Origin: Paracyclopina nana
Taxonomy: Eukaryota > Arthropoda > Copepoda > Cyclopoida > Cyclopettidae
Length of the DNA: 64,000 nucleotides
Direction of reading: 5' to 3'
Assembly: GCA_019096065.1 (NCBI GenBank)
Contig: JAGUCH010000003.1
Location: 9,610,001 to 9,674,000 of the forward strand
The translations under genes and the position numbers were made by a program. The notes under the pieces were generated by a model. It was not told the DNA's origin, made no database searches, and saw only the letters and a list, made by a program, of their open reading frames with translations. Shown here piece by piece: positions 41,756 to 60,778 of this stretch (position 1 is its first letter; every line of letters starts with the position of its first letter).

Positions 41756-41842
41756 ACCAATTTTTTATTCATGCATTCTAATCAATCACACCAATTTTGT
41801 AAAGTACTGTATACATTATTTGCCAAAGTAGCCTGAAGACCA

Positions 41843-42882
41843 CTAATCTTGCTGCTCTGCAGTGGCTTTTTCAATTGCATGCAATGCTTCCAGCATGACT
41901 GGCAACATGCTCAAGGCAAATGAATACTGAAAAACACTACCATTGGCTAGCCTGCGGCAAAGGGACACTGCCACATATTTGTACGGGTCAATCCGTCCTC
42001 TTGAGCTGACACTAATCTCAGAAAGTGCAATGTATTGATTGTCGCTCACTGGAATCTTAAAAGGAGCAAAATCCTTACATTTACCCTGAGAGCGTTTGGC
42101 TAAATTCAACAGTGTGGGCATAGAATCCAAAAGGATACCAGTCGTAGTGGACACCTCTGATGATGATTCTTGTTGCTGTTCATCCGATTTTTGCTGCATG
42201 ACAGCTAAAGGAGGCTTGGTGGAAGAGTCCATGTTGGATTGCTTTTTCTGCTCAATGCGACGCTTTTTTTCAGCTTGGCGGATGATCTTCATGGATGTCG
42301 GTTTTTCTTGCTGCATCACCTCAGTGCGAGCAGGGGTGGTAGTTACCAACCGCGTGCTATATGCTGGCGACGCAGCATGTAGTTCAGTGCTCTTGTTAAT
42401 CGATGGCCCATAGGTTTTCGCCGACCTTTGCGTCCTCTTCGAACCCTCTTGCTTTGCAGTGGCTTGTTGCCCAATGGCAGCCTCCTTGGTCGTCTCACTC
42501 TTTTTCCCTGCTTTTTCTTCTTTGTTGGCATGATTCAAATGATCATCATCCTCCTCGTCACCACCATCAGAGAAAATGAGATGCTTGCGTGAACGAGCTT
42601 TGCCTGCAACAATGGGATGCCATGATGCATCAGCTTAGGTGAACTAAAGTGGCTTTTACCTTTAAAAATGGGTGATGGAGTGTCCACCAAGGCAGTCTCA
42701 TTTTGTAGTAGCAATGGTGGAGAGCCATCATCCTCATCATCACTGGAAGTGTCCTCCTCAGTCTTTGATGCATTGCCATCATTGGCCTCATCATCGCTGA
42801 ATAAAGCCTGGGAGGCATCCTCACTCACTTGAGTGAGAGGATAGTCTTTGAATGGAGGGTGGCTTGTGGACTTCTTGCTCAT
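41843..42882 (-). CDS. Polinton acidic/Lys-rich protein with possible PC4-like C-terminus
   Basis: Two minus-strand coding segments separated by a short intron-like gap near 42.6 kb. The N-terminal part starts MSKKSTSHPPFKDYPLTQ and is rich in Asp, Glu and Ser; the middle is Lys/Gln/Thr-rich. The last about 65 residues are compact: FKIPVSDNQYIALSEI, YVAVSLCRR, then FALSMLPVMLEALHAIEKA. The strand-strand-strand-helix order and the SL...hydrophobic-helix end recall the ssDNA-binding PC4 coactivator fold, but the likeness is weak and needs a profile search. A TATA box (TATAAAA, minus strand, 42,948-42,942) lies 60 bp before the start. Confidence 0.5.
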
Positions 42883-42941
42883 GTTGTTGCTCTTCAGAGA
42901 CTGTGCGACCAAATGTGACCAGCAGCCACCGTGCTACATTC

Positions 42942-42948
42942 TTTTATA
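42942..42948 (-). promoter_or_regulatory. TATA box of the PC4-like Polinton gene
   Basis: TATAAAA on the minus strand sits 60 bp upstream of the ATG at 42,882, a normal Pol II distance allowing about 30 bp to the start site. Confidence 0.55.
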
Positions 42949-43129
42949 GCAGTGGCTTACAACGAACTTTTTTTGTGTGTGTGTCCGCATTCCTTTGAAC
43001 AGTGGTGAAACAGATGGTAAAAATAAACATGCAAGCTTCAACGTCAGTGATAGAACAAGGCTAAAACCAACCTGATTGTGAATCAAGAGTATCCATGCAG
43101 CTCAAGGAGGGGGAGGAGGAGAGAAAAGC

Positions 43130-44041
43130 ATGCCCAAAATAGTTCAGTGTTTTTCTTGTGGTAGCAAATTTAATGCATTTGCTAGCTACAGAGATCACAA
43201 GTCAACGTGTCAAGCCCAGCAGCAGCAGCAACAGCAACAAGAAAATGCTGCTGCTGCAAGTGGTAGATCACAGGCAGTGCAAATCTGCAATCTATGTAGT
43301 GCTACCTTTGAGCAAAAATCACAATTGCACATTCATATTAGCAATGTTCATAAAAATCAAGCAGGAAAGTGGCTTTGCCACAAATGTCCTGCTATTTTTT
43401 CTCGTTTATTTGGTCTGAGAACTCATTTGAAAAAACAGCATGGAGGGATGAGACAGGCCTTTTATTGCCCATTATGCCCATCACTTTACATTCCAGACTA
43501 TGAAATATTGGAAGGTCACCTATCATCTGTGCATGGCACAGTCAAAGAGGAGGCAATATTTTCACTGTGTGACTCAACCTTAAAAAACACCCAGGAATGT
43601 TTCAGTGCTAATCTAAAAGCTTTAAAAATTGAAACATTTGCTCAACTCACCATGTCAACAAAATTCATGCATGCTCTCAGCAAGATAATTCAAAATAATG
43701 TATAACATGTATGATAGCTTAGCATTGCTCCATATTGAACCAACTTTTTTTAGGTGTTACTGAAAACAAGGATCAAAATGGCTCTTATTGTTGTTGGTAA
43801 ATTCATTAAACTTTCGGCTGACATGCTGGTTGAAGAAACACAATTTGTGCCATTACGCTCTCAATCCATTGAGTTGAATCCAGAACGTGTGAAATATGTC
43901 AAACGCATCATTACTGACTTGGTTGGCCAATGTGAACTCCGATCACGTGAGCTCTGTTTAAGTGGAAGCAATTGGACTGAAGATGGGCTCATTTCCATGC
44001 AAGTTGAATTTTCCAAATGTAGAGAGTTAGCTTGTTTATAA
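43130..44041 (+). CDS. Polinton C2H2 zinc-finger protein
   Basis: Two coding segments. The first (43,130 to about 43,705) begins with CFSCGSKFNAFASYRDHKSTC, has a poly-Gln run, then C2H2 fingers CNLCSATFEQKSQLHIHISN, CHKCPAIFSRLFGLRTHLKK and CPLCPSLYIPDYEILEGHLS. The second (to 44,041) encodes a mostly helical C-terminal domain with no recognised fold. It could bind DNA of the element or the host. It points away from the PC4-like gene across about 250 bp, a divergent pair. Confidence 0.75.
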
Positions 44042-44199
44042 ATGTTGAGCATGTCCCCCACAACTTTATCTGATCATTTTGCTTCATTTGTCATAATCTG
44101 GGCTTTGCATGTTTAAAAAAGGGCCTTTGTTGAGCAATGAAACTTTTTCCTGAAATTCCTCATGTCTAGCCAGCACTAGACTAGGCCCACAAAAAGTAA

Positions 44200-45260
44200 G
44201 TAGGTGTCCAAAGGTTGTCTAGTTGTCCGTTCGATCATTTGCATAGCATCAGAGCTCATCAGAACTGATCTGACCATTCAGGCAAAGTGTCCTTTGCTTT
44301 AGATGTCCTTGCAAAGGCCATATGGGTTTGTTAAAGGCCAAAAAGGCCAGAAAAACACAGGATTCAAAGTAGAAAAAATAGTTTGATCCTTTCAGCCAGC
44401 TGCATTTACTATGCGTTAGAGCTCATCAGCACTGGCCTTGATAAAAGCCCCTGAAAAACATTGGCAAAGCCTCCCTTGTCTTGGCTGCCATTGCAAAGGC
44501 CATATGGACTTGTTAAAGGCCAAAAAGGCCAGAAAAACACAGGATTCAAAGTAGAAAAAATAGTTTGATCCTTTCAGCCAGCTGCATTTACTATGCGTTA
44601 GAGCTCATCAGCACTGGCCTTGATTAAAGCCCCTGATAAACATTGGCAAAGCCTCCCTTGTCTTGGCTGCCATTGCAAAGGCCATATGGACTTGTAAAAG
44701 GCCAAAAAGGCCAGAAAAACACAGGATTCAAAGTAGAAAAAATAGTTTGATCCTTTCAGCCAGCTGCATTTACTATGCGTTAGAGCTCATCAGCACTGGC
44801 CAGGATGAAGGCCCCTGAAAAACATTGGCAAAGCCTCCCTTGTCTTGGCTGCCATTGCAAAGGCCATATGGACTTGTTAAAGGCCAAAAAGGCCAGAAAA
44901 ACACAGGATTCAAAGTAGAAAAAATAGTTTGATCCTTTCAGTCAGCTGCATTTACTATGCTTTAGAGCTCATCAGCACTGACCTTGATTAAAGCCCCTGA
45001 AAAACATTGGCAAAGCCTCCCTTGTCTTGGCTGCCATTGCAAAGGTCATATGGGCTTGTTAAAGGCCAAAACAGCCAGAAAAGAGTAAGCTGTAAAGAAG
45101 AAAAAATAGTTTGATCCTTTCAGCCAGCTGCATTTACATAAGAGCTAATCAGCACTGGCCAGGATGAAGGCCCCTGAAACACATTTGGCTGCAAAGGCCA
45201 GATGGTCTTGGTGAAGGCCAAAAATACCATAAAATTAAAAGCTGTAAATAAGAAACAATA
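44200..45260. repeat. 182-bp tandem repeat inside the Polinton
   Basis: GTAGAAAAAATAGTTTGATCC occurs at 44,369, 44,551, 44,733 and 44,915, exactly 182 bp apart, with diverged units before and after (about 45,095 and 45,240). Each unit has CCAGCTGCATTTACTATGC and several near-palindromic AAAGGCCAAAAAGGCC blocks. It is non-coding and sits between the zinc-finger gene and a TATA-led gene, so a regulatory or replication role is possible. Confidence 0.92.
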
Positions 45261-45349
45261 GGCTGATCAACCCTGTGGATGTCCACCCTCCGCTCCTCTC
45301 CGCTCCGCTTGCTTGCCTGCTTGTTCCTCTGCTGCTGTAAGCAACCCAG

Positions 45350-45357
45350 TATATAAG
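45350..45357 (+). promoter_or_regulatory. TATA box of the gene at 45,456
   Basis: TATATAAG lies 106 bp before the ATG at 45,456. A CT-rich stretch (CTCCGCTCCTCTCCGCTCCG) precedes it by about 50 bp. Confidence 0.6.
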
Positions 45358-45455
45358 GATGCTTGTGTCCATCCCTCAACAGTGCAGTTTGGTACAATTT
45401 GGTCCCAACTTCACATCTAGCACCTGTCTCAGCTACTCCAACCAACCAACCTAGG

Positions 45456-46977
45456 ATGTCAACTGATTCTGCTGCTGTCGAGGGTATCAAGAACCACATT
45501 TTACGAAAAATAGGAAGAGTCATGGACAACAGTCCCTCTGATTCCTTCGAGTTTAAAATGGTAAACATGACTGGCAGTGACCACCAAGGTACCCTGGAGG
45601 AAATCATCGCGGAGGCCCAGAGGGCATCGGGAGAGGAGGGGGAGGCGATACAACTTTTCCACTTTATTGATGGTAAACAACTTTTTCAGCAGTTGACAAT
45701 CTCATACTTGTGTCTCTTCTAGGTGTCTATTATGACAAGGATGGCATTGAGGTCAACCTCAGTGACCTGGATGATGAGGATGACCGTGAGATGATGTGCG
45801 TGGTACAGCACAACATATGCCCCCTGCATCCCAAAGGAGCGCCCGGATCACGCTGAAATGCCTGCCGCCGCTGCTGCTGCTGCTGCTGCTCATCCCAAGA
45901 AGGGCAACCCAGGGATCAACACAGGAGCCAACCCAGCGACCAAGCAACGGATCAACCCAGGGGCTGCCAATCCCCGGATCAGCCAGGGGGGCAACCAAGG
46001 AGCCAAGCAAGGGGACAACCAGGAGGAGGAGGAGCCCATGTGGATCCTGTCTTTGCAGCTGGATACACTCCACTTGGACACGCTCCGGAAGGCCAGATTG
46101 CTCTACCACTGGCAACGTGGTAGCTCTCCAGATCAAGCAAAAAAAGGAACCCTATTGGCAGGCATGCTGGGTGAGGAAATGCCCATGAGGCAATTGGGCG
46201 GCCTGCATGGAGGTGGACATGCCTCTGCAACATTGAGCCCCACAGTGGCTCACCGCATCGTTGGTGCCATTGGGTCCAAGGGGGAGGAAAGATTCAAGCA
46301 GTTGGCCCTGGCAAATGTGTTCTCAAAGGATGCCATTGACGACTATAGGTGCCATGCCTACTCCCACCAACTACGTTCCAAGGAGGTGACTCCAGCAGAT
46401 CCTGTCGCCGACTTGGATGCGTGGAGGCTTTGTGGCATCATTGAAGTAAGCACAACAAATGCAATAAGCTACTGCATGTTATGGTTTGTTTGTTCTTTCA
46501 GGTCGTTTACTTCAATGCACCCATCACCGCTGTCAAACTCGTCACTGGGATAAAAAAAGTGGTCAAGACCCTATTTAAATATGGGGTGATTACAAGGATG
46601 CAGCTGGAAGCTCGCAAGTGCATGGCATCTCTTTTGAGGTAATGAGTAGCAGGAGTTATCACCTCATGGCCAGCATTGATGTTTATTTTATTTACAGGGA
46701 GTTTTACATTGCCACTGGCTTTGATGTCCCCGTTGCCATTGCAAAGCCGGAGGATCCTCTGCTATTTTTGGAGTATCTAGCAGACGAGAAACTGGAAAAT
46801 GGAGAGCATAGCCCATGCAAACACTGTGGAAACAACGATGCCTGCGGTGACAAGAGCGCCCAAGACTTTCTACATATGCTGGAAGAAGCTGCCAAAAATA
46901 TGAAGAGGAACAAGGCCGCAACTGCAGCAGAGCAATGTGGTGACAAGAAGAAGAAGAAGAAGAGCAAGTCCAACTGA
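45456..46977 (+). CDS. Polinton protein of unknown function, multi-segment
   Basis: Plus-strand coding segments with intron-like gaps between them. The first starts MSTDSAAVEGIKNHILRKIG. A middle part has poly-Ala and Asn/Gly/Gln-rich near-repeats (NPGINTGANPATKQ, NPGAANPRISQGG), followed by ordered sequence (SPTVAHRIVGAIGSKGEERF). The last part has HSPCKHCGNNDACG, a possible metal site, and a Lys-rich tail (KKKKKKSKSN). The parts may belong to one or more genes; I cannot tell. The basic tail and low-complexity spacer would suit a nucleic-acid-binding or core protein, but no family is recognised. Confidence 0.5.
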
Positions 46978-47303
46978 GACCCTTTCATCACAACCATGTT
47001 CTCTTCCAAAATTCAAAATTACTGGTAGTTTTCACACTTTTCACGCTGCTTCATCCCCTTTTTGATTGGTAAACCGGCATTTGAAATACACATATGATTG
47101 GCTTCCCTAGTTTTGTGTCGTCGTTGTCGCCGTTTGTTGCACATCATGGTGAAATACACTCTTGTGGCAGCATGCACACAGTACACACTCAATTGTCGCG
47201 GTGAACAGAATGGATTGCTCCAAAAATTGACCCAAAGAGCCAAATTGTTGCCAAAATCTGGTCACTCCTTACTTCAGGTTGCACAACAACAACAACAACA
47301 GCC

Positions 47304-50300
47304 ATGAGGTTTGACACCTGTGTCCCTCGCAGTCAACATCTTCATTTGCTGCCACTTGAGTCCAGTGTAAAATCATTCCACTATGCTGTAGCCATCAGCC
47401 TATTTCATGCGTGTCTCCAAAATGACGGTGACGGTGGTGGTGGCATTTTGGCCGAATTGGACGCTATTCTCGCCCAACATTTCATTTTGGAGCCTCATGG
47501 AGATGAAGCAGCAAGCAGCACCAGCAGCACTGACGAAGATTGGCTCCACAAGTTGAACATTGAAACCAGTGCATTGACCAATGACGAGCTCAAATTTGTA
47601 TTGGATAATGCGCCCAAGCTGGACTTTTGCGTCAACTTATTGGGCATTTGGCGAAAAAAAATATATCCCATTGCCTTGGGGATTGGTGAAGCATCATCAG
47701 TGAAAGCAAGGCGAACGCACGTTGTCAACATCTTTAAAATTACGCTTCACAGGGAAGACATGCCAGCATGCCAACAAGAGCACATGCTTGATGCTCACTG
47801 GCTTGACTTGATGCAAAACCAACTGTCCAATATCAATAAAACTGAGCTGGAAGCGCTCACTTTCCAACGCTTGAAGGAATCACAGCATGAAAGAGACGAC
47901 CGACTTGCAGTACGCCAACGATTTGGACGTGAACTGTCCTACAAGAGCAAAGATGATGCTACATTGATGCATATTTTGAACCAACGCGAACATGAAGTCC
48001 TTGGTGTGGAAGAGTACTATTTTGCCATCAAAAACATTAGTGGCTTTCTTAGGCAAAGTTACACCATTGAATCCGAGACAGTGGGGGCACGGTCCAAAGT
48101 GTATTGGCGAAAAGCTTCTTTTTGCATCAGGTACAACTACTCACAGATGTGCTGCCTGATTGTTCACTCTCTGCTTCTTCTAGATGCTGTGGACCCTTCT
48201 ACAGCCCTACCAAGTTGGTTGAGCATGCCAAGTTTTGCCTTGCTCGACCAGTCCCCATGCGTGAATCCATGCCCAATGACTTAACGCCACCTCAATGGCA
48301 CCAATCATTCAAAAAGCACCAGGCCAAAGAACGGGCAGAAGTTGTGGTCTATGCTGATTTTGAAAGCCTTCTGTCCAAGCCTGAAGCTGCATGTCAAATG
48401 TGCCAATCATCAGCTGAAAATGCCAGGACACGATGCAAGTGCCATGCGTCCATAGAGAGTGGAAGGGCTGCCTCCATGCAAGTGCTGAATGTTCACATCC
48501 CTATGGCTTTTGGCTATGTGGCAGTGGATAGCCGAGGTGTGCTTGTGCGTGAGCATTTGCAAATGTTGCCTGATGATGAAACCTGCAAAAAAGAGGGAAA
48601 GAAAATGTTTATCCAACATTTTCTCGACATGGAACCTTTCTTTCGTGCTTTGCTTGATAAGGATGTGGCTGCTCGACCCACTGAGGCTGATTTGGATCGG
48701 TTTTTTGCCACAAAGCACTGTGTCATTTGTGAGCAACCCTTTGATTTCAATTGCGACTATTATGGTGCAATGTACACAAGAGGACTTGGGCAACGAGGGC
48801 TCCTAGGCCAACGCATTGTGTGCAGGCAACGACCAGAGGAAGGGGGAGAACAAATTGTCCACCATCACCACCACATCAAAGGCATCTGGCTTGGACCAGC
48901 CCACTTTGTAAGTCCACATTGCCAAAGCCTCACTACTCTCATCATCATCACCATTGTTTTCAATGCAGGTTTGCAATGTCGAGATTGCCAAACACAAAAA
49001 AGTGCACATTTTTATGCATAATTTTTCCGGCTATGACTCTGGCCTACTGCTTGATGCCTTGGATGATCCTCGCATAAAACACATGTCAGCTATCGCTGGC
49101 AACACAAATCGACTCAAATCTCTATCATTCAACATTTTCCAAATTTGTAAGACAAATGATGAACACTGTTCTTCACTGATCTGATGTGTTTCTTTCAGCG
49201 GACTCGTTGAATCATTTACCAGCCTCATTAGCAGCCCTGGTGGATAACTTGAAGCAAAGTCACCATCATTTTCCAATTTTACGCCAAAGCAGTTTGGTCA
49301 AAAATGACCAGGGTGACGTGGATGAAGAAAGGCTTCATGCATCACAACAGAAATCCTTTTATCCCTATGAAGCAGCTTCATCGATTGCATGGCTCAAATC
49401 CCAAAAAGTGCTGCCACCAGCAGCTGCTTTTGCTTCAATGCTCACAGCATCAGCAGGACTTTCAGGTTCTGAGCATGCATTTGCTCGAAAGGTATTTGGT
49501 CTGTTTGGTTGTCAAGATATGTACGACTACTGTGCCATTTATCTCTGGCTTGATTGTCTTCTTTTGGCCGAAGTATTTGAAGCCTACCTTGAAAAAATGC
49601 ATGGATTGTTTGGACTCTATCCAAATTATTATTTGAGTAAGTCAAACTCCCTGTTTGTGCATGTTGATCAACACAACCTTTTTAGGCATTCCAGCCTATA
49701 CCTTTGATGCCTTCCTCTACGCTGAAAAAATCCAATTGCCTTTTATTCAAGACCGCACCATCTACAGAGCTTTTGAGGAGACGGTAAGGCAGTACAGACT
49801 ACATTGAGCAGCATGTTGGAGATGTCATTTTTTAGGTGCGTGGTGGCCTCTGCTTTGTCAATAAACGGTTAGCTATTGCTGAAAGCCCTTCAGACCATGA
49901 CCCTCACTGGACCACCGGTCTCTTTGATGCAAATTCACTTTATTCTGTGGGTGGGTAGCAAGCAAGACAAGCACACAAGTTATGCGCAGCTATCACTTCA
50001 ATTCTAGGGATGGTCCAAAAACTACCTTTCAGCAACTTTCAATGGCTGACAGACAAAGAGATCCAATCCTTTGACAGCACTGGCCAAAGTTGGAATCTTG
50101 ATGGTGAACTAGGCTACTTGATGAATGTTGATCTCGCCTATCCAGCCCACTTACACCGTGCCCACAATGATTTTCCACTGGGTAGAAAGGACAATTTTTA
50201 ATGCTAATGCTTCTTCTTGAGCACATCTATTTTCAGCTCCGACGCAAATGATTGTGCCCTATGAAATGTTGTCTGAGCACACCAAAAAACTCATGGCTAA

Positions 50301-51530
50301 ACTTGGTCGTACACCCTCAAGCATTTCCAATCGCAAGCTTGTAGCTACTTTATTGCCAAAAAAAGGCTACAGTGTGCACTGGAAAACACTTCACTTGTAT
50401 CTTCAGCTTGGACTTGTCATTACAAAAATCCATTCCATTCTCCAATTTAAACAAAAAGCCTTCATGCGGAAATATGTCAACATGTGTATTGAGGCCCGAG
50501 GCAAGAGTAAAAGTTCGTTTGACAAAAAGCTTTTCAAGAGTGCTCAAGTGTCGCTTTTTGGCAAAACCATTGAAAATATCAGAAAGCGCATCTCATTAAA
50601 AATTGTGAGAAAGCCTTCCTTGTTGGAGAAGCATGTTGGTGCCAAAACTTACATGCTTACGCGAGCCATTTCAGACAACATTGCGCTTGTGTTTCACAGA
50701 CAGGACCACATTGTTTTGAATAAATTCCCGCACATAGGTAGGTAGCGTATGACTGTTCAGCCAACCACAAATTCACCTTTCATCTTCCAGGAGCCACCAT
50801 TTTGGACTTGGCAAAAGCATTCATGTACAAAGCCCACTATGAGTTGTTCATGCCTGTGTTAGGTCCCTCTGCCAGTCTTTGCTTTGGTGATACAGATAGT
50901 CTGGCTTATCATTACTTGAGTCGTGGAGGCAATCAAGCCGTTCTCACAGCATTAAAGTCACACTTTGACTTTAGTAATCTTCCACCTCATCATGCCTTGT
51001 TCAGCCTCCAACACGAGAATGCCATTTTCAAATTCAAAGATGAATCTGGAATGAAGTTTCAATTGGCTTCCATTGTGGCCTTAGCACCAAAAGTGTATTC
51101 CATCAAATCCGTACCGATTGGAGAGAATGAGGATGGTGTGCGCATCGAACACAAGTGCAAAGGCGTGTCAAAAGTATATGTCAAAAAAGAGTTGACACAT
51201 GAGCATTATTTGGAAGCCCTTTTACAGGAAAAGCAAATTTATGCCTCATTTGCACAAATACGCAGAACAGGCCTTACCAAGCTGGAAACTGTACAGACTA
51301 GAAAATCGGCCTTGACTAGCTTGTGCCTGAAACGCTACTATTACAAGTGTGCCATTCACTCAGCGGCCTTTGGAAGTGTGCTCATTGACCAGCTTGAGGG
51401 CAAGTGCTTTCAGTGCCTCGAAGAAAAAGAATTTGAGCTGTGGCGCAGGCGTCAGACAGGGAAACGCAAGTTCAGCAATGATGACGACGGCTGTTTACCT
51501 CCCAGTCCAAAGCAGCAAAGGCTAGCATAA
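47304..51530 (+). CDS. POLB: Polinton protein-primed DNA polymerase B
   Basis: Coding blocks from ATG 47,304 to the stop at 51,530, with short gaps that have intron-like ends. Family-B exonuclease motifs come in order: VVYADFESLL (Exo I, about 48.35 kb), HNFSGYDSGLLL (Exo II, about 49.03 kb), and YLWLDCLLLAEVF (Exo III region, about 49.54 kb). Polymerase motifs follow: MNVDLAYPAHLH (motif A, about 50.12 kb), a lysine-bearing motif B region near 50.4 kb, and CFGDTDSLAYHY (motif C with the DTD pair, about 50.89 kb). Protein-primed enzymes of this type copy linear DNA from terminal proteins. Its 3' end overlaps that of the minus-strand protease gene by 9 bp. Confidence 0.93.
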
Positions 51531-52100
51531 CATATATTTACATTTTTGTTCGAGTATGTACTTGCAAATAAATCTGACCACTCGATCATCATTTTTCAAC
51601 AAAGATGCTTCATTGCCTTGTGTTAATTTCAACCGTTCATAGAAACGCCGTGGTTCCATGCTTGAGCAAGGGTCTTGGCTTAAAATGAAGGCTAGTGCGA
51701 AAAAGCCACAAAAGTCTGAGAAGTTGCTTTGGATTTTTGCATGCAGCTTGACCACTTGCAAATGGCTCCCTCCAGGGTGCTCCAAAAGGATGCATTGGCA
51801 TGTTTGAATAAACTTTGTTATATTGGGATCGGAAAAGCCGAGTGATAATGAGTCAAATATATACAGGGTGGTTTGCAATGTGCCACGACCATGGTGAAGT
51901 AGCAAGGCAACAAAGTGTGTGCCAGCAAAGCGACTTGGACTGAGATTCACAATGCAACTCTTGCCTTCAAGGCGGTCCAATCCAAGCATGCGGTGAGCCA
52001 TGCCATCTAGTTCGTCGCAAGCAAACACCCCTAAAAATGTACAGCAAAGGCGTGATCCCAGTGCATCCAGGTAAACATTGCTCAACCCCTCTTCTTTCAT
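51522..52100 (-). CDS. PRO: Polinton adenovirus-type cysteine protease
   Basis: 192 residues in one exon. Catalytic order matches the adenain/Ulp1-like fold: His in RFAGTHFVALLLHH, an acidic partner in LYIFDSLSLGF, and Cys in SDFCGFFALAFIL. Such enzymes mature capsid proteins. It follows the capsid gene on the same strand with 6 bp between stop and start, the usual Polinton neighbourhood. Confidence 0.88.
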   Translation of the reverse strand: MKEEGLSNVYLDALGSRLCCTFLGVFACDELDGMAHRMLGLDRLEGKSCIVNLSPSRFAGTHFVALLLHHGRGTLQTTLYIFDSLSLGFSDPNITKFIQTCQCILLEHPGGSHLQVVKLHAKIQSNFSDFCGFFALAFILSQDPCSSMEPRRFYERLKLTQGNEASLLKNDDRVVRFICKYILEQKCKYMLC

Positions 52101-52106
52101 CCTGTC

Positions 52107-53707
52107 CTAAAAGTCCAGCATCACTTGTCGGTCACTGTTAATTGAGAGCATGCGATGGGTGGAGGTGTAAAAAACAATTTGGAGCGGTTCACTCGGAGGC
52201 TCTTTAAAAGTGATTTCCACGCCAATGTTGCCTAAAATGAACAAACATTCAGTCAGCATGGCCATTAGGCCACTCTGCACTTTTCTTGATGTTGTGTTTA
52301 CCTTTAGCATCCAGTCCCAAATGTGAATGGTACCCAGAACAACTACAAAACGTCCGATCGAGGCTAAAAATTGTGTACATGTGCTTATATTCTTCTTTAG
52401 TGATACCAATGGTAGGACTATGTGTGATACTCAGGTCCGTCAACAAACTGATGTACTCCCGGTTGAAGTCGTCTTTATCAAATTTTGGCTCATACCTTGT
52501 TGCGGGATAAGGTGTACCTTAGAGAGAGGGGAGATAGGCAGACAGTCACAAGATGATGATATGCAGCTTACCATTCACTTTGAATTGCAAGCTGGCAATA
52601 TTCCAATTTTTAAACACAAAGGAATTCACGCTCATCTTGCCAGATACAGCAGAATTAGGAACAAGTGCCAGCAAGCAAAGGTGGGGTAAAATACCATTGT
52701 GTAGGCTTGGAATAAAAACTTGAGTCAAATTGGCTGGAATAGCATGAAATGTCACATTGCCGTTTATGTAGGGGTACAGCGCTGGAGTTCTCAGCAAGGC
52801 TGCAGTTTGTGCATCCAGCAATTGATTTACAACTTTGTGAGACCGCATGGCTAATTTTAAGTTAACCAGATCAATTTTTAACTTGTCCTTCAATGCATCT
52901 TTTCCAATTAAGCAAAATGTGTCGGGAGAACGTGTCAGCTCAATCCTTATGTTGACTTCAGAAATTAACATTCTTGACATGTTGAGGACATCCACAAATA
53001 GTGGCATGCTAAAATTAATTTCACCATCATTTTTAAGAAAGAGCTCTCTTCGGCTGTTGAAGCCAGAAGGTTCAGTTGTTTTCTCTGTCGTTTCACAGTT
53101 GCTTGGCAGGTCTGGTTGCCAAAGCATCGATTGCATTCCACATGCTTTAGCCGAAGGGCCGTAACTGAATAGACTTTCAAAAAAGGCTTTATAGGGGTAT
53201 CCGCCCACAGGCATGTTTGTTAATTCTGTACCATTAAAGCTGACTGCCACTCGGCTAAATAATGCCTGAGGCAGCAAATTGACAAAGCTAAAATCTGTTG
53301 TTGCTTGGGGTGCACCTAAATGAGTCATCAATGCGCATGTGGTTACATGAAAAATGTCTTATGTTTGTTTTACCTTCCGTGCCATCATCATTGATTTCTA
53401 TAATTTTTAACTTTCCATAGAGTCTAGTTTGTTGCAAGTCAAAGAAATCATAGCTCAGACCAGACACATTAAACACAACATTGCCATGGTTTGACAATGC
53501 ATTAAAAGGCTGGTAAAATAGGTCTTCACCTCCAAGTAAAACAGAATCACGTTGAGGCTGAGCAAATAGATTGTATCTTGATTGACCTTGCTCATAGATA
53601 GAAGTAACAATTTCACCCAATCCTGGATGGTCGGTATTATAGCCGGACATGTCTGTCTGTTGGCTACTCAAATGTTGCTCAAGCCATGTGCTTAAGTCAT
53701 CATTCAA
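52107..53707 (-). CDS. MCP: Polinton major capsid protein (double jelly roll)
   Basis: Minus-strand coding segments with short intron-like gaps. Recognisable Polinton capsid features include LQQTRLYGKLKIIEIND near the start, VNLLPQALFSRVAVSFNGTE, and YPYKAFFESLFSYG, the hallmark stretch after the first strands. The latter part has FIPSLHNGILPHLCLLALVP and ends in IVFYTSTHRMLSINSDR. Together with the protease and packaging ATPase it implies virion-forming ability in the lineage. The coding start faces the TBP-like gene across a very short divergent interval. Confidence 0.88.
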
Positions 53708-53709
53708 CC

Positions 53710-54345
53710 ATGTTTGTTCGCGCAGTCAACACGTGCTTTTGTGGACAGTTTTTAGACATTTGCAATATCAAAGGCTCTGTGAAAATAAGTGGAAAAGTGG
53801 ACCTTGATAGCCTTCAAACATTGTGCAACGAGCAGCTTCACATAAAAAATCGAAGATTTCATAACTTTGTTGTGCTTTATTTCTACCCAACCAGCCTAAG
53901 ACTCATTGTGTTTCAATGTCGTAGAGGTCAAACTATGTTTCATGTCAATTGTACAGGCATGAAATCAGTGTCTGACATCATGTCATGCTTGGAAAAAATT
54001 AAAATAATTTTTTCATGCAGTCAGAGTGACATGACTTTCCGAAAGGACAATATTACATGTAAAAGCTCCATTTTGCTCCATTACATGGCACAACATTTAC
54101 CTCCAGATTACAAGATTAATTTGCTACAGCTCAAAGACGCTGTGCTGGACCTGTACAAGGACACCATTGAACAGGCTCGTTTTCAACCTGAGGTCTACTC
54201 AGCCCTGATTGTGCGAGGCTTTGGTGCCTCAACACTGATCTATGAAAATGGCTCCATGCTCATTTGTGGGGCAAAACATTACCACCAGTTGCATCAGGCC
54301 TCTCTTGCCATTTACACAGCATTATGTCGGATTGCCAACACTTGA
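53710..54345 (+). CDS. Polinton TATA-binding-protein-like protein
   Basis: 211 residues in one exon. Two half-repeats in the order of the TBP saddle are visible. Repeat 1 runs from about residue 14 (ICNIKGSVKISGKVDLDSLQ) through FHNFVVLYFYPTSLRLIVFQ. Repeat 2 has ARFQPEVYSALIVRGFGAS, then TLIYENGSMLICGAKHYHQL and a closing helix. The second repeat is close to eukaryotic TBP (F-P-E-x-F/Y-x-A-L-I-x-R ... L-I-F/Y-x-x-G-x-M/V-x-x-x-G-A-K), including the strand-turn-strand with GAK. The first is more diverged. Family knowledge: TBP bends TATA DNA and recruits TFIIB. It overlaps the next gene by 22 bp, and that gene looks like TFIIB, which strengthens the call. Confidence 0.72.
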   Translation: MFVRAVNTCFCGQFLDICNIKGSVKISGKVDLDSLQTLCNEQLHIKNRRFHNFVVLYFYPTSLRLIVFQCRRGQTMFHVNCTGMKSVSDIMSCLEKIKIIFSCSQSDMTFRKDNITCKSSILLHYMAQHLPPDYKINLLQLKDAVLDLYKDTIEQARFQPEVYSALIVRGFGASTLIYENGSMLICGAKHYHQLHQASLAIYTALCRIANT

Positions 54346-55067
54346 ATCAAGCAGATGATCATCAATCTGGGGATGTTATCTGCCTCTCGTGTGGACTTGT
54401 GATGGCAGAACGTGTTGCATTTGCTGCACCTCAGACAAGCTCAGACAATAGCCGTCCACCTTCAAGCAAAAGTGGTCACGTCTCACCAGCCAAGCATGAC
54501 CCAGCATGCAGCGGGGGCAAAGGCCATGATGCTCTTTTGGACACATTGCTGAATGTGTGTTCAAATGTAAATTTACCCCTACCATTTGCAAGTAAGGCTC
54601 ATCATTTGTATCAAACATTAGGACAAAAAATCAAGTTGCCAAAGCTCTTGGTGCATAAAAAAGCAATCCTATTTGCTGCCTTGTACGAGGTGCTGCAGGA
54701 TGAGCAATGTCCCCTCACATTTCGAGAGATCACAAGCTTGGACAATGACCTCAAGGCATCACTCATTTCCACCGCTCACATCAAGTACTTTAAACAACAC
54801 ACGCACACAAAGCCTGTGCAGCTTGTGGACCGTTTTTGCGCTAAACTCAACATGACAAAGGTTCAAGCATGTCAAGTAAGGAGGTTCATCCAATCCTCTA
54901 GCCTCAACCAATATTGCAATCTCAACCCTGCCACCATTGTTGCTGGTTTTATAAAGATGTTCAGTGATGGTGAAAACCTTCAACTCAATGTGAATGATAT
55001 TTGCACTATTGCTGGCATCAAAAAGCATACCTTGGTTCGCTTCTTGAAACGCTATCACATGAACTAA
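54324..55067 (+). CDS. Polinton TFIIB-like transcription factor
   Basis: 247 residues in one exon. The N-terminus is a TFIIB-type zinc ribbon: C and H in SDCQHLNQADDHQSG, then GDVICLSCGLVMAERV with the C-x-x-C-G-L-V hallmark. After a polar linker (about residues 45-70) come helical segments consistent with two cyclin folds. The second ends NPATIVAGFIKMFSDGE, DICTIAGIKKHTLVRFLKRY, very like the SPA-x-I-A-A ... E-I-x-x-V/A-x-G-V-x-x-x-T-I-R-x-x-Y-K signature of TFIIB and archaeal TFB. It is shorter than cellular TFIIB (about 310 residues). Its role would be to bridge the TBP-like protein and host RNA polymerase II at the element's promoters; this is inferred from the pairing. No RNA polymerase gene is seen in the element. 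Confidence 0.78.
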   Translation: MSDCQHLNQADDHQSGDVICLSCGLVMAERVAFAAPQTSSDNSRPPSSKSGHVSPAKHDPACSGGKGHDALLDTLLNVCSNVNLPLPFASKAHHLYQTLGQKIKLPKLLVHKKAILFAALYEVLQDEQCPLTFREITSLDNDLKASLISTAHIKYFKQHTHTKPVQLVDRFCAKLNMTKVQACQVRRFIQSSSLNQYCNLNPATIVAGFIKMFSDGENLQLNVNDICTIAGIKKHTLVRFLKRYHMN

Positions 55068-55096
55068 CTGAGCCGGAGGAAGTGTCAAGTGTCATC

Positions 55097-55582
55097 ATGC
55101 CAATTGGTGGAAGCATTGGGAGTGAAGTCACACCTGGACTAGGTGGACTGCTGAAATTTCATCAAGGATCACATCTGCAGAGCGGATCGGGGCTTGGCTC
55201 CCTTTTTTCTTCTCTCTTTGCAAAAATATTACCGTTTGCTGCTAAAGCAGGCAAAGCAGCTCTTTCGGGCGTAAAGCAACTAAGCCAATCCGAATTGGGA
55301 AAAAATCTGAAGGCAACAGCTTTGAGTGCAACAACAGATGCCATCGCAGATTTAGTGCAAGGACAAGATCCAAGTGAAGGCTTGAAGTCGAAACTTGACG
55401 ATGCAAAGCAGGAAATTGCTTCAAGCCTGAGAAATATTTCTGAAAAAAATATAGCTGCTGTGAACAAGCGAAAAGCCGCTACAGCTGCAGCTACAGCGAG
55501 CAGAAAGAAGAAGAAAAAGAGGCAACAGCAGCCAGCGGAAGAGCTGATCAATCAGCCCTACGATTTATTTGATGGCAACTAA
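55097..55582 (+). CDS. Polinton PX-like minor virion/core protein
   Basis: 161 residues from MPIGGSIGSEVTPG. A Gly/Ser and hydrophobic segment (GSGLGSLFSSLFAKILPFAA), then KAGKAALSGVKQ and a DAIADLVQG stretch, match the pattern of the Polinton protein likened to adenovirus core or cement peptides. The tail is very basic (ASRKKKKKRQQQ). Likely packaged with DNA or membrane-active during entry in relatives. It overlaps the integrase start by about 10 bp. Confidence 0.7.
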   Translation: MPIGGSIGSEVTPGLGGLLKFHQGSHLQSGSGLGSLFSSLFAKILPFAAKAGKAALSGVKQLSQSELGKNLKATALSATTDAIADLVQGQDPSEGLKSKLDDAKQEIASSLRNISEKNIAAVNKRKAATAAATASRKKKKKRQQQPAEELINQPYDLFDGN

Positions 55583-56726
55583 TTGGACAAGGGCAGAGGC
55601 AGCCAAAGCCTTGGCCAAACATTACACTCAGATTGGACATCCTATTGCTTTTGCAGGTCCACAAACCCTACACGACTATTTCAAGGGTGCTCTCACCTAC
55701 ACTGACATTAAGCAATTTTTGTCCACACAAGATGTGTACACAGCTTACAGGCTCAACCATCCTAAGGCAGGCAAGCAAAATGTGATCTTTTCATACAAGA
55801 AACGTCAGCTGATTGAAGTGGATCTGCTTGATGTCTCTCGATACGCCAAGGAAAACGATGGTGTTCGCTTCCTCTTGTGTGCAATTGATGCTTTCACGCG
55901 CTATGTGTGGATAGGGTTGCTGAAAACAAAGACTTGTGCTGAAGTGACATCTGTATTTAGAAATATGCTTGATCGGGAGATAACACCGCCCAATGTGCGA
56001 GCACTTTGCTCTGATTTGGGGAAAGAATGGACAGGAAAGCCAATGCTGGCTTTGTTGAAGGAGCGATCCATTCAGCTGAGGCACTCATATGTATTAGGTC
56101 ACTGTGCAAAAATTGAACGTGTGCAAGCATCCATCAAAAGGTTAATGTTGGCATTTATGGACGAACACCGAACAGAGCGATATATTGACCACCTTGACCA
56201 AATACTGCAAACTTATCGCACAAGGAAACACCGTATCATACAAATGAGCCCAGCTCAGGCTGAACTGCCACAAAATCACATGCTCCTGAAGCAAATCTTT
56301 GAAAAAAACTATGCCTGTTTGAAGCGTGAAAAGCCAGCCTTTCAAATTGGACAAATTGTTCGCGTAACAAAACTTGATACATTATTCAATCGTGCCTATG
56401 ACTTGCAAACCAATAATGAACCCTATGTTATTTATCGTGTACGGACTGTGCACAAAATTCCTACCTATGACTTGAAAGTTTTAAAAACTGGAGAAATTGT
56501 ACAAGGTTCATTTTCAAAGCATCAATTGGTTGCTGTCGATCCCAGCATGAAATTTAGCATTGGTGATGTACTAAGGAAGAGAGGTGGAAAAAGTCTTATC
56601 ACTTACCATAATCTACCCTCTACCTATCAAACGTGGCTGCCAAGCAATGTTGTCAATCAAGTGCTGACTCAGGGCAATATCCCACAATTTCAACCACTTG
56701 CTGCGTATGTTAATAAACTAAAATAA
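55572..56726 (+). CDS. INT: Polinton integrase (RVE family)
   Basis: 384 residues from MATNWTRAEAAKAL. The DDE core is visible: first Asp in LIEVDLLDVSRY, second in VRALCSDLGKEW, and Glu in CAKIERVQASIKR, with retroviral-integrase spacing. A C-terminal SH3/chromo-like part follows (FQIGQIVRVTKLD, then PTYDLKVLKTGEIVQGSF). It would insert the element and make the 6-bp duplication seen at its ends. The stop is 4 bp before the next gene. Confidence 0.93.
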   Translation: MATNWTRAEAAKALAKHYTQIGHPIAFAGPQTLHDYFKGALTYTDIKQFLSTQDVYTAYRLNHPKAGKQNVIFSYKKRQLIEVDLLDVSRYAKENDGVRFLLCAIDAFTRYVWIGLLKTKTCAEVTSVFRNMLDREITPPNVRALCSDLGKEWTGKPMLALLKERSIQLRHSYVLGHCAKIERVQASIKRLMLAFMDEHRTERYIDHLDQILQTYRTRKHRIIQMSPAQAELPQNHMLLKQIFEKNYACLKREKPAFQIGQIVRVTKLDTLFNRAYDLQTNNEPYVIYRVRTVHKIPTYDLKVLKTGEIVQGSFSKHQLVAVDPSMKFSIGDVLRKRGGKSLITYHNLPSTYQTWLPSNVVNQVLTQGNIPQFQPLAAYVNKLK

Positions 56727-56730
56727 TACA

Positions 56731-58452
56731 ATGACTAGCTATTTTTTTTTGGCTTCAAATGGATCAACTGACATCTATCCTAACAACACACTTAGCCATT
56801 TTACAAATGCTCTCAGTGCACCCATGGCAAAATCCAACCGCATTTGCGAAGTGGCAGTGGAAGAATGCTTTGTTGATGCTCAGTTTCTGACACAAGGGAT
56901 TATGGCTTCAAACCATGAACATCCCGTCATTGTGCTCACCAAAAACTGTGACAGCACTAGCGAGGAATCCCTCATCATTGACATGGAGCAAAGTGTTGAC
57001 ATTGTCTCGAGGATTTTCCTACCGCACAAAAGCTACACATTGCGAAAGTTGGCAGACATCATCAACTCAGATGTGAAGAGTGCTGCGACAACAGTACAGA
57101 CTGATGAAAAGCCCTACATAGCCTATGCAGACCCTACCACGTTAGTGACTTATTTTGGTTGCTTTGCAAGCGAAAAATCAATGATGAAAAAGTTTAAGTG
57201 TGACAAAGAGCCTGACAAGCCCATCTGTATGCTTATTTACGAAGAACTAGCCAACATTCTATCAGATGGGACATTTCAACCGCGAGAGCGCATGTTGCAA
57301 CATGGTCTTGTCTACAGCGTGTATGATGCCAACCATGAGGGAGTTTATTTCAAATGCAAAAAAGGTGCACAGCTCAAACCTCAAATCCCTAAGCAAATTT
57401 TTTTATCTGCTTCATTCGTAAAAAAGCACCAAATTGACAGTCGGACGTGCAACTATGTGGCTTCGTTCAATATTGAGCGACAAAGCAACAACGGATTTTA
57501 CCTTGAGCTCAAAAATCCAATCTATTTCCAACTGTGTGAAAATCAGCCAAGAACTAACCTAACATTGCGACTTCTTGATGAAAACTACGCACAACTCAAG
57601 TTGCAACCAGGAAGAGCTACAATTGTCAAATTTAGCCTACGAAAATCGACACTTCAAACAATGTCTAATTTTTTTATTCGATGCACCTCCAAGCCAACTG
57701 ACAATTATAGGAAAAATAACCCAGGCAGCTTCACCTCTAGCCTAGCTGTTCCCCTCAACTTTTATGGCCACCATTGGTATGTGGCTCTTGCATCATGCTC
57801 TCTTCCTGCCAAATTTGAACTGCCCTTCTCCAACCGTGAAAGGAGTCTCTACTTCAAATTTTGGTCTGCTGAAGATGCTTCAGAGATTACATCTTTTACC
57901 CTCATGATGCCAAAAAATGTCAACCAATTGCAGGACATTGTGCAGTTTTTCAACAGCCAATTCAAGGCAGTGCGCACAAAGGCGAGCATTGACCCGCAAA
58001 GTGGTGGACTCTGCTTGACATCAGAACTGAACATGCGCATTGTGTTGCCAACAAAGTTGTATACATTTTTAGGGGGCAAATCCTCAAGTGCTGCAAGAAA
58101 ACCCGTCATGTCCATAGAAAGGCTAGCTAACAAGCCATTCAGCTTCAATTTTTTGCCCAAATTCAATCATTATATCCCAAATTCTATTTTCTTGTATGCC
58201 GATTTTATAACCGATACAATTGTATCCAACAATGAGCTGAAATTGCTCAAAGTATTGCCAGTGAAAACAATCACTGAGGAGGGCACCAATGTCAATATTG
58301 AGTTTGAAAAACTTGAATATCACAAAGTGAATGTGGCAGCAGCTTCCACCTTGCATTTTGACCTTCGCACACACAGCGGAGAAAAAGTAGCATTTAATAA
58401 TGACAATGACTTTGTTTTGCTCAATCTTGTATTTACGCAACACGTACAATAA
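56731..58452 (+). CDS. Polinton PW-like structural protein with two related domains
   Basis: 573 residues in one exon. It opens with FFLASNGSTDIYPNNTLSHF, and a related motif recurs near residue 313 (FFIRCTSKPTDNYRKNNPGS, then FTSSLAVPL). Both are followed by a V/W-V-A-L/V-E/A strand, so the protein seems to hold two copies of one domain. This kind of opening is known from large Polinton and adintovirus structural proteins of uncertain place in the virion. It converges with the minus-strand gene that follows (10 bp apart). Confidence 0.68.
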   Translation: MTSYFFLASNGSTDIYPNNTLSHFTNALSAPMAKSNRICEVAVEECFVDAQFLTQGIMASNHEHPVIVLTKNCDSTSEESLIIDMEQSVDIVSRIFLPHKSYTLRKLADIINSDVKSAATTVQTDEKPYIAYADPTTLVTYFGCFASEKSMMKKFKCDKEPDKPICMLIYEELANILSDGTFQPRERMLQHGLVYSVYDANHEGVYFKCKKGAQLKPQIPKQIFLSASFVKKHQIDSRTCNYVASFNIERQSNNGFYLELKNPIYFQLCENQPRTNLTLRLLDENYAQLKLQPGRATIVKFSLRKSTLQTMSNFFIRCTSKPTDNYRKNNPGSFTSSLAVPLNFYGHHWYVALASCSLPAKFELPFSNRERSLYFKFWSAEDASEITSFTLMMPKNVNQLQDIVQFFNSQFKAVRTKASIDPQSGGLCLTSELNMRIVLPTKLYTFLGGKSSSAARKPVMSIERLANKPFSFNFLPKFNHYIPNSIFLYADFITDTIVSNNELKLLKVLPVKTITEEGTNVNIEFEKLEYHKVNVAAASTLHFDLRTHSGEKVAFNNDNDFVLLNLVFTQHVQ

Positions 58453-58462
58453 AAAATTAGCA

Positions 58463-59140
58463 TTAAAATTTCCACTTGCAAAATGATTTAGTTTTACTAC
58501 AACCTTTACCATACTGGACAGGAACTTGCTTTGCTTTTCTTGGCCGTGGTGTATATTCCACAGCATCAGCGGGAGGCACAAACTTGCGTTTTGATCCTCT
58601 TGTTTTCACAGGGGGTGGTGATGGAGGCATTGGGCGTGGTACTACTCTTGGGGCGGGTTCTTGGATCTTGTCTGTCTGTGTGCCAAATGTAGCAATTTTA
58701 GGTCTGCTGTGGTAGGCATCAATGTGGCTCTCTACACTTTCTGGTCCGCTGAAAAGCCCATCGCAAATTGGGCAGGCCACGAGCCCCTCTTCATCATCAA
58801 CCTGTGTACCGGCATCTGTTGTTGTTGTTGTTGTTGCTGCTGCTCCTTCTGTTCGATCCATGTCAGCTTGGTCAATGGGCTCCCCAGTAATACTGTCTTG
58901 TTCGAGGGGAATCAGAGCCGGTGAGTCTGAGGCTTCCTCTGGTGCAGGCGGCATTCTTGGTGGATCTGAGTTGTTCCTACCTATGGCTTGATGATGTTGG
59001 TTGGCAGTGCCTTGCTGGTTCATGTGAGAAACGTCTTGGTTGTCGGCAGCATCAATGCACTGCAATAATTTATCATAGAGCTTGCTAGGCACAAGGTACA
59101 ATGTGGAGAAACTGCCTTTAAATGACTTTTGTCTAGGCAT
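58463..59140 (-). CDS. Polinton protein with one zinc finger
   Basis: 225 residues. The N-terminus has FSTLYLVPSKLYDKLLQCID. A long Pro/Ser/Thr/Gln-rich linker follows, then CPICDGLFSGPESVESHIDA (C2H2/UBZ-like) and a Pro/Arg/Lys-rich tail (VVPRPMPPSPPPVKTRGSKR). The finger could bind DNA or ubiquitin. The role is not known. Confidence 0.6.
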   Translation of the reverse strand: MPRQKSFKGSFSTLYLVPSKLYDKLLQCIDAADNQDVSHMNQQGTANQHHQAIGRNNSDPPRMPPAPEEASDSPALIPLEQDSITGEPIDQADMDRTEGAAATTTTTTDAGTQVDDEEGLVACPICDGLFSGPESVESHIDAYHSRPKIATFGTQTDKIQEPAPRVVPRPMPPSPPPVKTRGSKRKFVPPADAVEYTPRPRKAKQVPVQYGKGCSKTKSFCKWKF

Positions 59141-59149
59141 GGGTGGTGC

Positions 59150-59527
59150 TTATTTGGCCACTCGGTTAGCAATTAAACTAGTGATTGCGGGTACAAGTGC
59201 AGATAAAATCAAACCAATGCCTTGACCACTTTGCTTCTTAGCACGTCGTCGTCTCAATTCAACAGGCTTGGAACGATCAGCAATGAACCTTAGGTCAGTT
59301 GATGACTCACATAGCTGTTTTCTAAGCTTCTCTTTTGTTGCTTTTGAAAGGCCCAAATCAGAGTGTATGGCGTTATAGATGAAGGTACCCAAGTCATTGA
59401 TCGATTGCGGATTAAGTCTTGCCAAAAGGTCTTTCCGTTCTTCATTGGTTAATTTTTTCAGTGTATTCAAAAATAAAAGTTTGCACTTTTTCTCTGTCAT
59501 TTGCTTGAGTGGAGGCTTCTTGCTCAT
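59150..59527 (-). CDS. Polinton small basic protein with GxG hydrophobic end
   Basis: 125 residues starting MSKKPPLKQMTEKKCKLLF. The first two thirds are helical and charged (NEERKDLLARLNPQSINDLG), a pattern shared by small proteins of many Polintons and adintoviruses. The end is RRRRAKKQSGQGIGLILSAL followed by a hydrophobic run. Possibly a DNA- or membrane-associated virion component; inferred. Confidence 0.58.
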   Translation of the reverse strand: MSKKPPLKQMTEKKCKLLFLNTLKKLTNEERKDLLARLNPQSINDLGTFIYNAIHSDLGLSKATKEKLRKQLCESSTDLRFIADRSKPVELRRRRAKKQSGQGIGLILSALVPAITSLIANRVAK

Positions 59528-59574
59528 GGTGGCGGAAGAGAGACAATGTGAAGGTCCATTGAGGATTGCTTAGT

Positions 59575-60447
59575 TCAGCTATTTTTGACAAAGCAAATGG
59601 GTACCCCTATAGAAAGTACAAAATAAAGAATGAAACCACACTCACATCCATGCAAACTACCTTCATGAGAAAAGATTCTGCTGCGCAAACGAACCACATC
59701 ACTTTGAGAGGCATGCATGTCAAGAATCAAATAGGAATAAGGTGTTCTTGTTGCTGCAAGATAACTATTGACAATAAAGGATGATTGGTAAGGAGCAATT
59801 TGAGAGCTCAATGTAGAAATCTGCCGTTGCGAACGCACAGATTTCATTAAAATCAAGTAAGTTGCATTCAAGCTGATTGTTCGCAAATGGGGTCCTTCAC
59901 CAAATAATACTTGAGATGCAACCAGTGTGCTAGCATTCAAATGACGTGAGCCTAAATAATATGTGTTGATTAACCAAAAAGAGAGCATCATTGAATACTT
60001 ACCAACTGTGTAAAGTTGGTGGAGCTCGCTAAAGCTCTGCAATGAATCATCAAATATTGCAAAGCATCCTTCTTTCTTGTAGCTTGCCAAAATTTCGCGA
60101 ATTTCATCATAGGGTGGAATGCCTTCAATGAGTAGCGTGATCAGTCCATTTTTTAAAAGTGTTTGATAGATTGGCTGATATTCTTGATAGAATAGCAGCT
60201 TGACTGGTGGGTTTGGGTAAATTAGTTTGTCCGATTCCATCAAAAGATTTTGTATAAATGTGGTTTTTCCAGAACCTAAATGAATAATGCATCATGAACA
60301 ACATAAAAAAAAGAGTCTTCCTTCTTGCCATTACCAGCTGGACCACACACCAAATACGTTGCAGGATGCTAAATAAACATGATGATTATTTTGGATTTTT
60401 TATGCAATTCAATGTTTGTTTACCTTAAATTGAATGTCAAAAGGCAT
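59575..60447 (-). CDS. ATP: Polinton packaging ATPase (FtsK/HerA, A32-like)
   Basis: Minus-strand coding segments beginning near 60,447 (MPFDIQFK) with short intron-like gaps. A Walker A of the GxGKTTF type is at about 60,260-60,280, followed by NPPVKLLFYQEYQPIYQTL. Walker B lies in EGCFAIFDDSLQSF, and the downstream STLVASQVLF and NATYLILMKS strands are typical of DNA-packaging ATPases of this group. It is the last gene before the right inverted repeat. Confidence 0.85.
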
Positions 60448-60562
60448 TTTTCTAAACCTACTACTTTTATGCCTCCACCTTCTTTTAGTTCATGTGATTG
60501 CTTACTACTTCAGCTCATTCTTATCACGCAACCTTTGATGAGCCATTTTACAGCACGAGTTG

Positions 60563-60772
60563 GGAACGTTTTCACGATGCCAGGTAGGATTGGTTTCACG
60601 ATTGGTTTCACGATTGGTTTCACGATTGGTTTCACGACGCCAGGTAGGAACGTTTTCACGACCTCAGGTAGGAACACTTTTACAAGCCCATCTACAAGCC
60701 CATCTACAAGCCCATTCACGTCGAGTACCACGAGTCAAACGACAGGCTCAAGGGGGCCAAACCCCAACAACA
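60563..60772. repeat. Right terminal inverted repeat of the Polinton
   Basis: Reverse complement of 39,677-39,886 with about two differences in 210 bp. Ends CCCCAACAACA followed by the GAGACA duplication at 60,773-60,778. It carries the same internal 12-bp tandem units in the opposite order. Confidence 0.95.
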
Positions 60773-60778
60773 GAGACA

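Follow-up and report, generated by a model that had tools for sequence, protein, structure and literature searches.

A TBP-like and TFIIB-like gene pair in capsid-bearing Polintons of Paracyclopina nana, a candidate virus-type promoter-recognition system

Introduction

The window analyzed here is a 64,000-nucleotide stretch of the genome of the copepod Paracyclopina nana (C3:9610001-9674000 in the 92-Mb, ten-contig genome that was searched). It contains a Polinton of 21,096 bp, at 39677..60772, that bears two adjacent genes encoding a TATA-binding protein (TBP)-like protein and a TFIIB-like protein. The pair is probably (about 60%) a virus-type promoter-recognition pair that recruits host RNA polymerase II (Pol II) and fires the virion genes of the element. 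We infer this mechanism from homology, pairing, linkage and past purifying selection, all of which are observed.

The pair is linked to capsid genes in four families

Genome searches identified four families of divergent sequence in the host genome, A to D, with 14 loci in total (given as contig and position in Mb). Family A is composed of the window, C1:16.40M, C1:1.07M, C2:14.45M, and C2:2.00M. Family B is found at C3:5.88M, C2:2.20M, C7:6.96M, and C1:14.73M, family C at C9:3.98M, C8:1.92M, and C2:6.46M, and family D at C9:0.81M and C9:0.83M. A search with the family B major capsid protein (MCP) returned 14 places, and all 14 have adjoining TBP-like and TFIIB-like sequence; capsid genes too divergent for this query would escape it. 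A preliminary description of this DNA, made from the letters of the window, had named repeated co-occurrence in other Polintons as a sign of a genuine system, and such co-occurrence is now seen at 14/14 MCP loci and in four families of the host genome. A packaging ATPase match is also present at every one of the 14 loci.

The gene order is common to the four families. The MCP gene is divergent from the TBP-TFIIB pair, and the integrase gene lies downstream in the same direction as the pair. MCP and TBP are separated by 59 nt in family A and by 45 nt in B1. The two genes of the pair overlap or nearly overlap across families. In the window, the overlap of their open reading frames (ORFs) is 22 nt, in agreement with the earlier claim of two overlapping plus-strand genes at 53710..55067, and the longest ATG frame of the TBP ORF begins at 53686. 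Family A has an ORF of 161 aa between the TFIIB and integrase genes (55097..55582, plus strand).

Both frames of the pair are open at 10 of the 14 loci (two of family A, four of B, three of C, and one of D). At C9:0.83M, the TFIIB-like part was identified from a zinc-ribbon match (E 0.02) and from a reading of its broken frames. The 14 loci are represented in the alignments by six TBP rows and five TFIIB rows; near-identical duplicates and broken-frame copies (the C1:1.07M TFIIB, C2:14.45M, C2:2.00M, and C9:0.83M) were left out of the alignments and of the substitution ratios.

No relatives beyond the host genome were returned from 5.8 billion proteins (searched with the proteins one at a time and with the TBP alignment) or from IMG/VR scans; these searches depend on exact words in common, and since cellular TBP and TFIIB were not returned either, the negative says little about distribution.

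The TBP-like protein

The TBP-like gene (53710..54345, plus strand) encodes 211 aa with two TBP repeats by alignment. The ORF matches Pfam PF00352 with an E-value of 8.6e-11 (42 bits against a cut-off of 22.9). A profile of the six rows matches 35 distinct TBP-containing sequences in the PDB, the best at 3.2e-15 and the weakest at 8.4e-9, while the three other matches of the same search are all at 0.077 or worse. Together these scores confirm the TBP identity first suggested by eye. When compared with the pair of host TBP and TLF, the profile aligns over 164 columns with a probability of 96.5. Five of the six rows pass the Pfam cut-off, with family C below it at 15.1 bits, and the second repeat is the strongest part in most single matches.

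Residues at the DNA and TFIIB interfaces were compared by eye in the alignment with host TBP and TLF; their roles (minor-groove Asn, intercalating aromatics, stirrup Glu) are assumed to be those of cellular TBP. In the four columns of DNA-inserting aromatics, every one of the 24 cells is F or Y. All six rows have the minor-groove Asn in repeat 1, and five of six have it in repeat 2, where family D has Ser. The Glu of the TFIIB-contacting stirrup is likewise kept in five of six rows and is Gln in family D. A single-sequence AlphaFold model of the protein (mean pLDDT 42) has strand-helix patterns compatible with two repeats.

The TFIIB-like protein

The TFIIB-like gene (54324..55067, plus strand) encodes 247 aa with a zinc-ribbon motif, C-x-H...C-x2-C, and two cyclin-type repeats. 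Taken alone, the ORF matches the Pfam Zn_Ribbon_TF (1.5e-4) and TFIIB repeat (2.1e-4) models below their cut-offs, and human TFIIB by phmmer at 1.3e-7. A profile of the five rows matches human TFIIB at 2.1e-24 over both cyclin-type repeats, archaeal TFB at 1.3e-10, yeast TFIIB at 7.3e-7, a Brf1-TBP fusion chain at 4.3e-5, and yeast Brf1 at 0.0021. Because the profile scores human TFIIB above TFB and Brf1, the element proteins are nearest to the Pol II factor. The preliminary description had read a zinc ribbon and a final cyclin repeat in this protein and had proposed profile searches for both partners; both are matched, TFIIB convincingly through the family profile.

One of the five TFIIB-like rows passes the Pfam TFIIB-repeat cut-off, and the Pfam ribbon is detected in families A and D alone, below cut-off. 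The ribbon-type motif C-x-[CH]...C-x2-C is present in all five rows; its first knuckle lacks one residue relative to the usual C-x2-[CH]. The family C row first matches the pattern at residues 15-34 and contains another motif of this kind further on. The spacing from ribbon to core is about 40 residues in family A and about 10 in family B (boundaries set by eye). The single-sequence AlphaFold model (mean pLDDT 47) has ten helices, the number expected for two cyclin folds. With this low-confidence model, the top Foldseek matches are the TFIIB chain of initiation complexes and TFIIB itself (best E 6.5e-5).

Selection and origin

While the elements were active, purifying selection acted on both genes. 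In comparisons among family C copies, TBP has a dN/dS of 0.17-0.18, or 0.11 once the overlap is excluded, and TFIIB has 0.17, or 0.15 with the overlap excluded. Between A and A2, the TBP genes differ at 75% of synonymous sites (pS 0.75) and 16% of nonsynonymous sites (pN 0.16). Between B1 and B2, the corresponding values are 84% and 34% for TBP and 84% and 37% for TFIIB, with synonymous change saturated.

A small tree places the element TBPs away from host TBP and TLF at 100/100 (two host rows), and the element TFIIBs group together at 86/94, below the star threshold. The presence in the host of TBP plus a TBP-like factor, together with other genes, is typical of an animal. With two or three cellular rows, these trees suggest a single old acquisition of the pair. 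The host TFIIB gene has a partial second copy (L044, C2:6582640-6582837), whose repeat sequence is that of the main gene over the part read.

Elements and derivatives without the pair

The integrase search found eight places outside the 14 loci. These include three inverted twin pairs about 16.4-16.9 kb apart, at C9:2262711/2279143 (2.26M/2.28M), C7:4631859/4648280 (4.63M/4.65M), and C3:1719024/1735964 (1.72M/1.74M), as well as integrase fragments at C3:9.03M and C6:6.42M. A Pfam PolB match lies between the twins in C9 and C7. Searches for MCP, ATPase, TBP, and TFIIB give no match in the C9 and C3 twin regions, and the MCP search gives none in C7. The twin regions appear to be amplified, internally deleted and possibly palindromic Polinton derivatives.

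The twin region at C7:4.63M, the one that was read, contains 1.6 kb that is 99.6% identical to the C2:2.20M element beyond the ATPase gene. Immediately after this piece comes the 3' third of a family B TFIIB-like gene, which is followed by the integrase. The two pieces are 99.2-99.6% identical to family B elements and stand in the order of C2:2.20M, with about 3.8 kb absent. By C2:2.20M coordinates, ATPase, MCP, TBP, and most of TFIIB fall within the absent part, and the integrase is kept. Elements stripped of the capsid block and the pair have still multiplied.

Two BIR-RING frames resembling inhibitors of apoptosis were seen by eye within the 1.6-kb piece (L065:712-1272 and 3-509, plus strand). 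A family B element has a BIR-RING inhibitor-of-apoptosis gene at L062:8126-8665 on the minus strand (BIR 1.1e-20, RING 1e-13).

The ATPase search matched three places outside the 14 loci (C4:6.12M, C9:0.85M, and C9:0.92M). The DNA_pol_B_2 search matched two of the twin regions and seven places without MCP or pair. A 457-aa frame with no Polinton integrase or MCP nearby is found at C4:2804198 (2.80M), C3:4110827 (4.11M), C9:1672144 (1.67M), and C3:9949828 (9.95M), and the further places are C9:6.27M, C2:15.98M, and C1:16.56M. These seven may be other element types.

Proposed mechanism and its difficulties

The element would depend on a polymerase of the host. As the preliminary description stated, it appears to have no RNA polymerase gene: Pfam found no subunit among 15 ORFs of the window and 17 of the relative at C3:5.88M that were scanned, some small ORFs being unscanned. 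Read by eye, the family A MCP gene has an apparent GT-AG intron (about 53316-53373) whose position is shared by two copies, as would suit transcription in the nucleus by host Pol II.

In the proposed mechanism, the TBP-like protein would bend the promoter DNA of the element, and the TFIIB-like protein would bind the resulting complex through its cyclin repeats. The zinc ribbon of the TFIIB-like protein would dock host Pol II. The complex would then fire MCP, ATPase, and other virion genes during a viral program of the element, presumably as late genes, with the divergent MCP/TBP promoter as a likely target. Particle production is itself presumed. A more tentative proposal is that the pair is an old orthogonal module. 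Under this proposal, element TBP and TFIIB would replace those of the host at element promoters that are not TATA-like and so switch host Pol II to virion genes; the module would have been acquired before the four families split and kept by the capsid-bearing elements.

Several results weigh against a promoter-recognition role. In the 120 nt preceding each of 18 window and 17 relative ORFs, TATA motifs occur no more often than in shuffled sequence, so the TATA-bearing promoters that the preliminary description attributed to the element find no support. The regions upstream of the ORFs also have no convincing shared 7-mer, with single 7-mers seen three to five times. The TBP-like model is too poor to display a saddle, and the 50 Foldseek rows listed contain no TBP and nothing at E <= 0.001. 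Structure prediction of each protein singly, as had been recommended, answered at low confidence for one partner: the TFIIB model finds TFIIB first, whereas the TBP model finds no TBP among the rows listed. In family B, the spacing of about 10 residues is too short for a normal B-reader and linker. Late timing is suggested by linkage, and both promoter activity and contact with Pol II are predictions from sequence. Derivatives that keep integrase and lack the pair have multiplied, so the pair is dispensable in cis for transposition. The joint loss of pair and capsid block may carry no functional reason, as adjacent genes can go in one deletion.

Two sequence features were observed near the genes of relatives. 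The sequence TTATAAAAG lies between MCP and TBP in one relative and is absent from the window. At C3:5.88M, the 246 bp between PolB and a divergent 312-aa ORF (L062:6881-7126) contain four AGGTCA/TGACCT hexamers, of which there are 12 in 20 kb; we take these to resemble nuclear-receptor half-sites.

Alternative explanations

The pair could instead act as a decoy in host shut-off, competing with host TBP and TFIIB and blocking host pre-initiation complexes without firing element promoters. The nearly absent room for a B-reader and linker in family B might allow TFIIB-like proteins to bind without permitting initiation, and the missing TATA signal in the elements fits the same idea. A decoy would need one partner alone, whereas both are together at 14/14 loci, and both repeats retain the DNA-contacting aromatics and Asn; this role is judged unlikely. 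Recent capture of host TBP and TFIIB genes, with no function in the element, would be easy to envisage for genes that every host has, one of which (TFIIB) even has the partial copy L044. The separation of element TBPs from host TBP and TLF at 100/100 with two host rows and the dN/dS of 0.11-0.18 in family C speak against it, as does the comparison of families A and B, which are 21-26% identical to each other and yet share their gene order. Capture is thus given very little credence, and it was considered and disfavored along with chance similarity.

Integration targeting, in which the pair would steer the neighboring integrase to host promoters of a particular class, is a quite improbable explanation. 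TFIIIB guides Ty3 integration, a Ty3-TFIIIB structure (7q5b) is among the Foldseek matches of the TFIIB-like model, and TBP-TFIIB lies upstream of the integrase in the same direction. Against this, derivatives with integrase and no detected TBP have spread, although help in trans is possible, and ARAGORN (bacterial code) detected tRNA genes neither in the window nor in 12 pieces of 10 kb. It is similarly doubtful that the folds are kept for some other task on DNA, for example packaging or the recognition of ends, and take no part in transcription. Linkage with MCP and ATPase at 14/14 loci would suit such a role, but in every system known to us the combination of a zinc ribbon, a paired TBP and two cyclin repeats is reserved for initiating transcription. 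Recruitment of host Pol II to virion genes is the preferred reading.

Structure of the window element

The Polinton was delimited by its terminal inverted repeats (TIRs), its target-site duplication (TSD), and its genes. The left TIR (39677..39886, plus strand) is the reverse complement of the right TIR (60563..60772, minus strand) at 208 of 210 nt. The 6-bp TSD, GAGACA, is found at 39671..39676 on the left and 60773..60778 on the right. Both features were established for the window element.

The Polinton gene set of integrase, PolB, ATPase, protease, and MCP is present in the window element and in the relative at C3:5.88M. The MCP gene (52546..53650, minus strand) is in two frames, and the MCP of the relative matches 52564-53304 in the genome search. 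An adenovirus-type protease (51522..52100, minus strand) matches Pfam Peptidase_C5 at 2.6e-5, above cut-off. The integrase (55572..56726, plus strand) has an rve core at 1.4e-4, under cut-off, and is about 33% identical to the integrase of the relative, which itself matches rve at 3.6e-11. The packaging ATPase frame (59575..60291, minus strand) has a match at 59659-60273 that is 46% identical to the ATPase of the relative and leaves out its N-terminal 19 residues. The complete-looking Polinton that had been described as the setting of the pair is borne out by these genes, the PolB frames, the TIRs, and the GAGACA TSD.

The PolB region (48071..51530, plus strand) is spread over several frames and is homologous to the 1087-aa PolB of the relative by tblastn to L062 and L063. 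The PolB of the relative matches DNA_pol_B_2 at 1.3e-21, and the Pfam PolB search gives no match to the window. Across the genome, that search matches five of the 14 loci (four of family B and one of D), and the family A PolB frames were identified via tblastn. In the window (family A), PolB and MCP are each divided among several frames, while both are single open frames in the family B element that was read (L062:3617-6880 and L061:8068-9372). In the relative at C3:5.88M, the integrase, MCP, ATPase, and PolB frames are open and homologous to those of the window. A copy in C1 is 99.5% identical to the window element over the 16.3 kb compared, so family A moved recently.

A tandem repeat with 182-nt spacing and four reported copies lies inside the Polinton at 44281-45126. 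Near the left end of the window is a 244-nt satellite array (1200-5025), with shorter repeats of about 170-nt period from position 1.

Comparison with known systems

Polintons/Mavericks of animals, including nematodes, resemble the window element in their TIRs, 6-bp TSD, integrase, PolB, protease, ATPase, and MCP. To our knowledge, TBP and TFIIB lie outside the core Polinton set. No report of a TBP/TFIIB pair in a Polinton was found in the literature covered, which included neither the adintovirus papers nor the work of Jeong et al. 2023 on nematode Polintons. The main text of a 2024 survey of double-jelly-roll viruses does not contain TATA, TBP, TFIIB, or the word transcription (PMC11071308). 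Mirusvirus-like elements of the green alga Cymbomonas sporadically encode TATA-binding proteins (PMC10675990). They are similar to the elements described here in being mobile, of viral origin, and in carrying TBP, but differ in that TFIIB is not mentioned in the main text (PMC10675990).

The nucleocytoplasmic large DNA viruses (NCLDVs) have genomes far larger than this element. TBP and TFIIB genes are present in megavirus (PMC11464507), African swine fever virus has a TBP homologue (PMC10881513), and TFIIB is an NCLDV marker gene (PMC12638062). The NCLDVs share TBP and TFIIB with the element, but the consulted portions of the same sources name RNA polymerase subunits of the viruses themselves (PMC11464507, PMC10881513, PMC12638062); NCLDV-type subunits were not encountered in the 15 window and 17 relative ORFs scanned. 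Poxvirus VITF-3 is a virus-encoded TBP/TFIIB pair that works with the viral RNA polymerase, according to the sections of the source consulted (PMC12917281). By description, it is like the window pair in its two partners and unlike it in its viral polymerase, which has no counterpart among the element ORFs scanned. All viral TBP/TFIIB pairs found described come from viruses that encode an RNA polymerase themselves.

The herpesvirus viral pre-initiation complex (vPIC) is similar in that a DNA virus uses a viral TBP-like protein on host Pol II (PMC13345323). Its component ORF24 of Kaposi's sarcoma-associated herpesvirus, which has homologues in other herpesviruses, mimics TBP and brings host Pol II to late promoters. 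ORF24 has its own Pol II-binding domain and acts with five other viral factors, and the consulted part of the source names no viral TFIIB (PMC13345323). The window pair differs in that its partner is a clear TFIIB and its TBP-like protein is 211 residues long; the likeness drawn here is one of description. ORF24 demonstrates that a virus using host Pol II can recruit the polymerase through a TBP mimic and is a precedent for the recruitment proposed here. A pair carried by a 21-kb element in which no polymerase was found would be a simple natural system in which to study how two proteins can rewire promoter choice. Capsid-bearing Polintons would then seem to run a regulated, virus-like program of gene expression, which bears on whether they still act like viruses.
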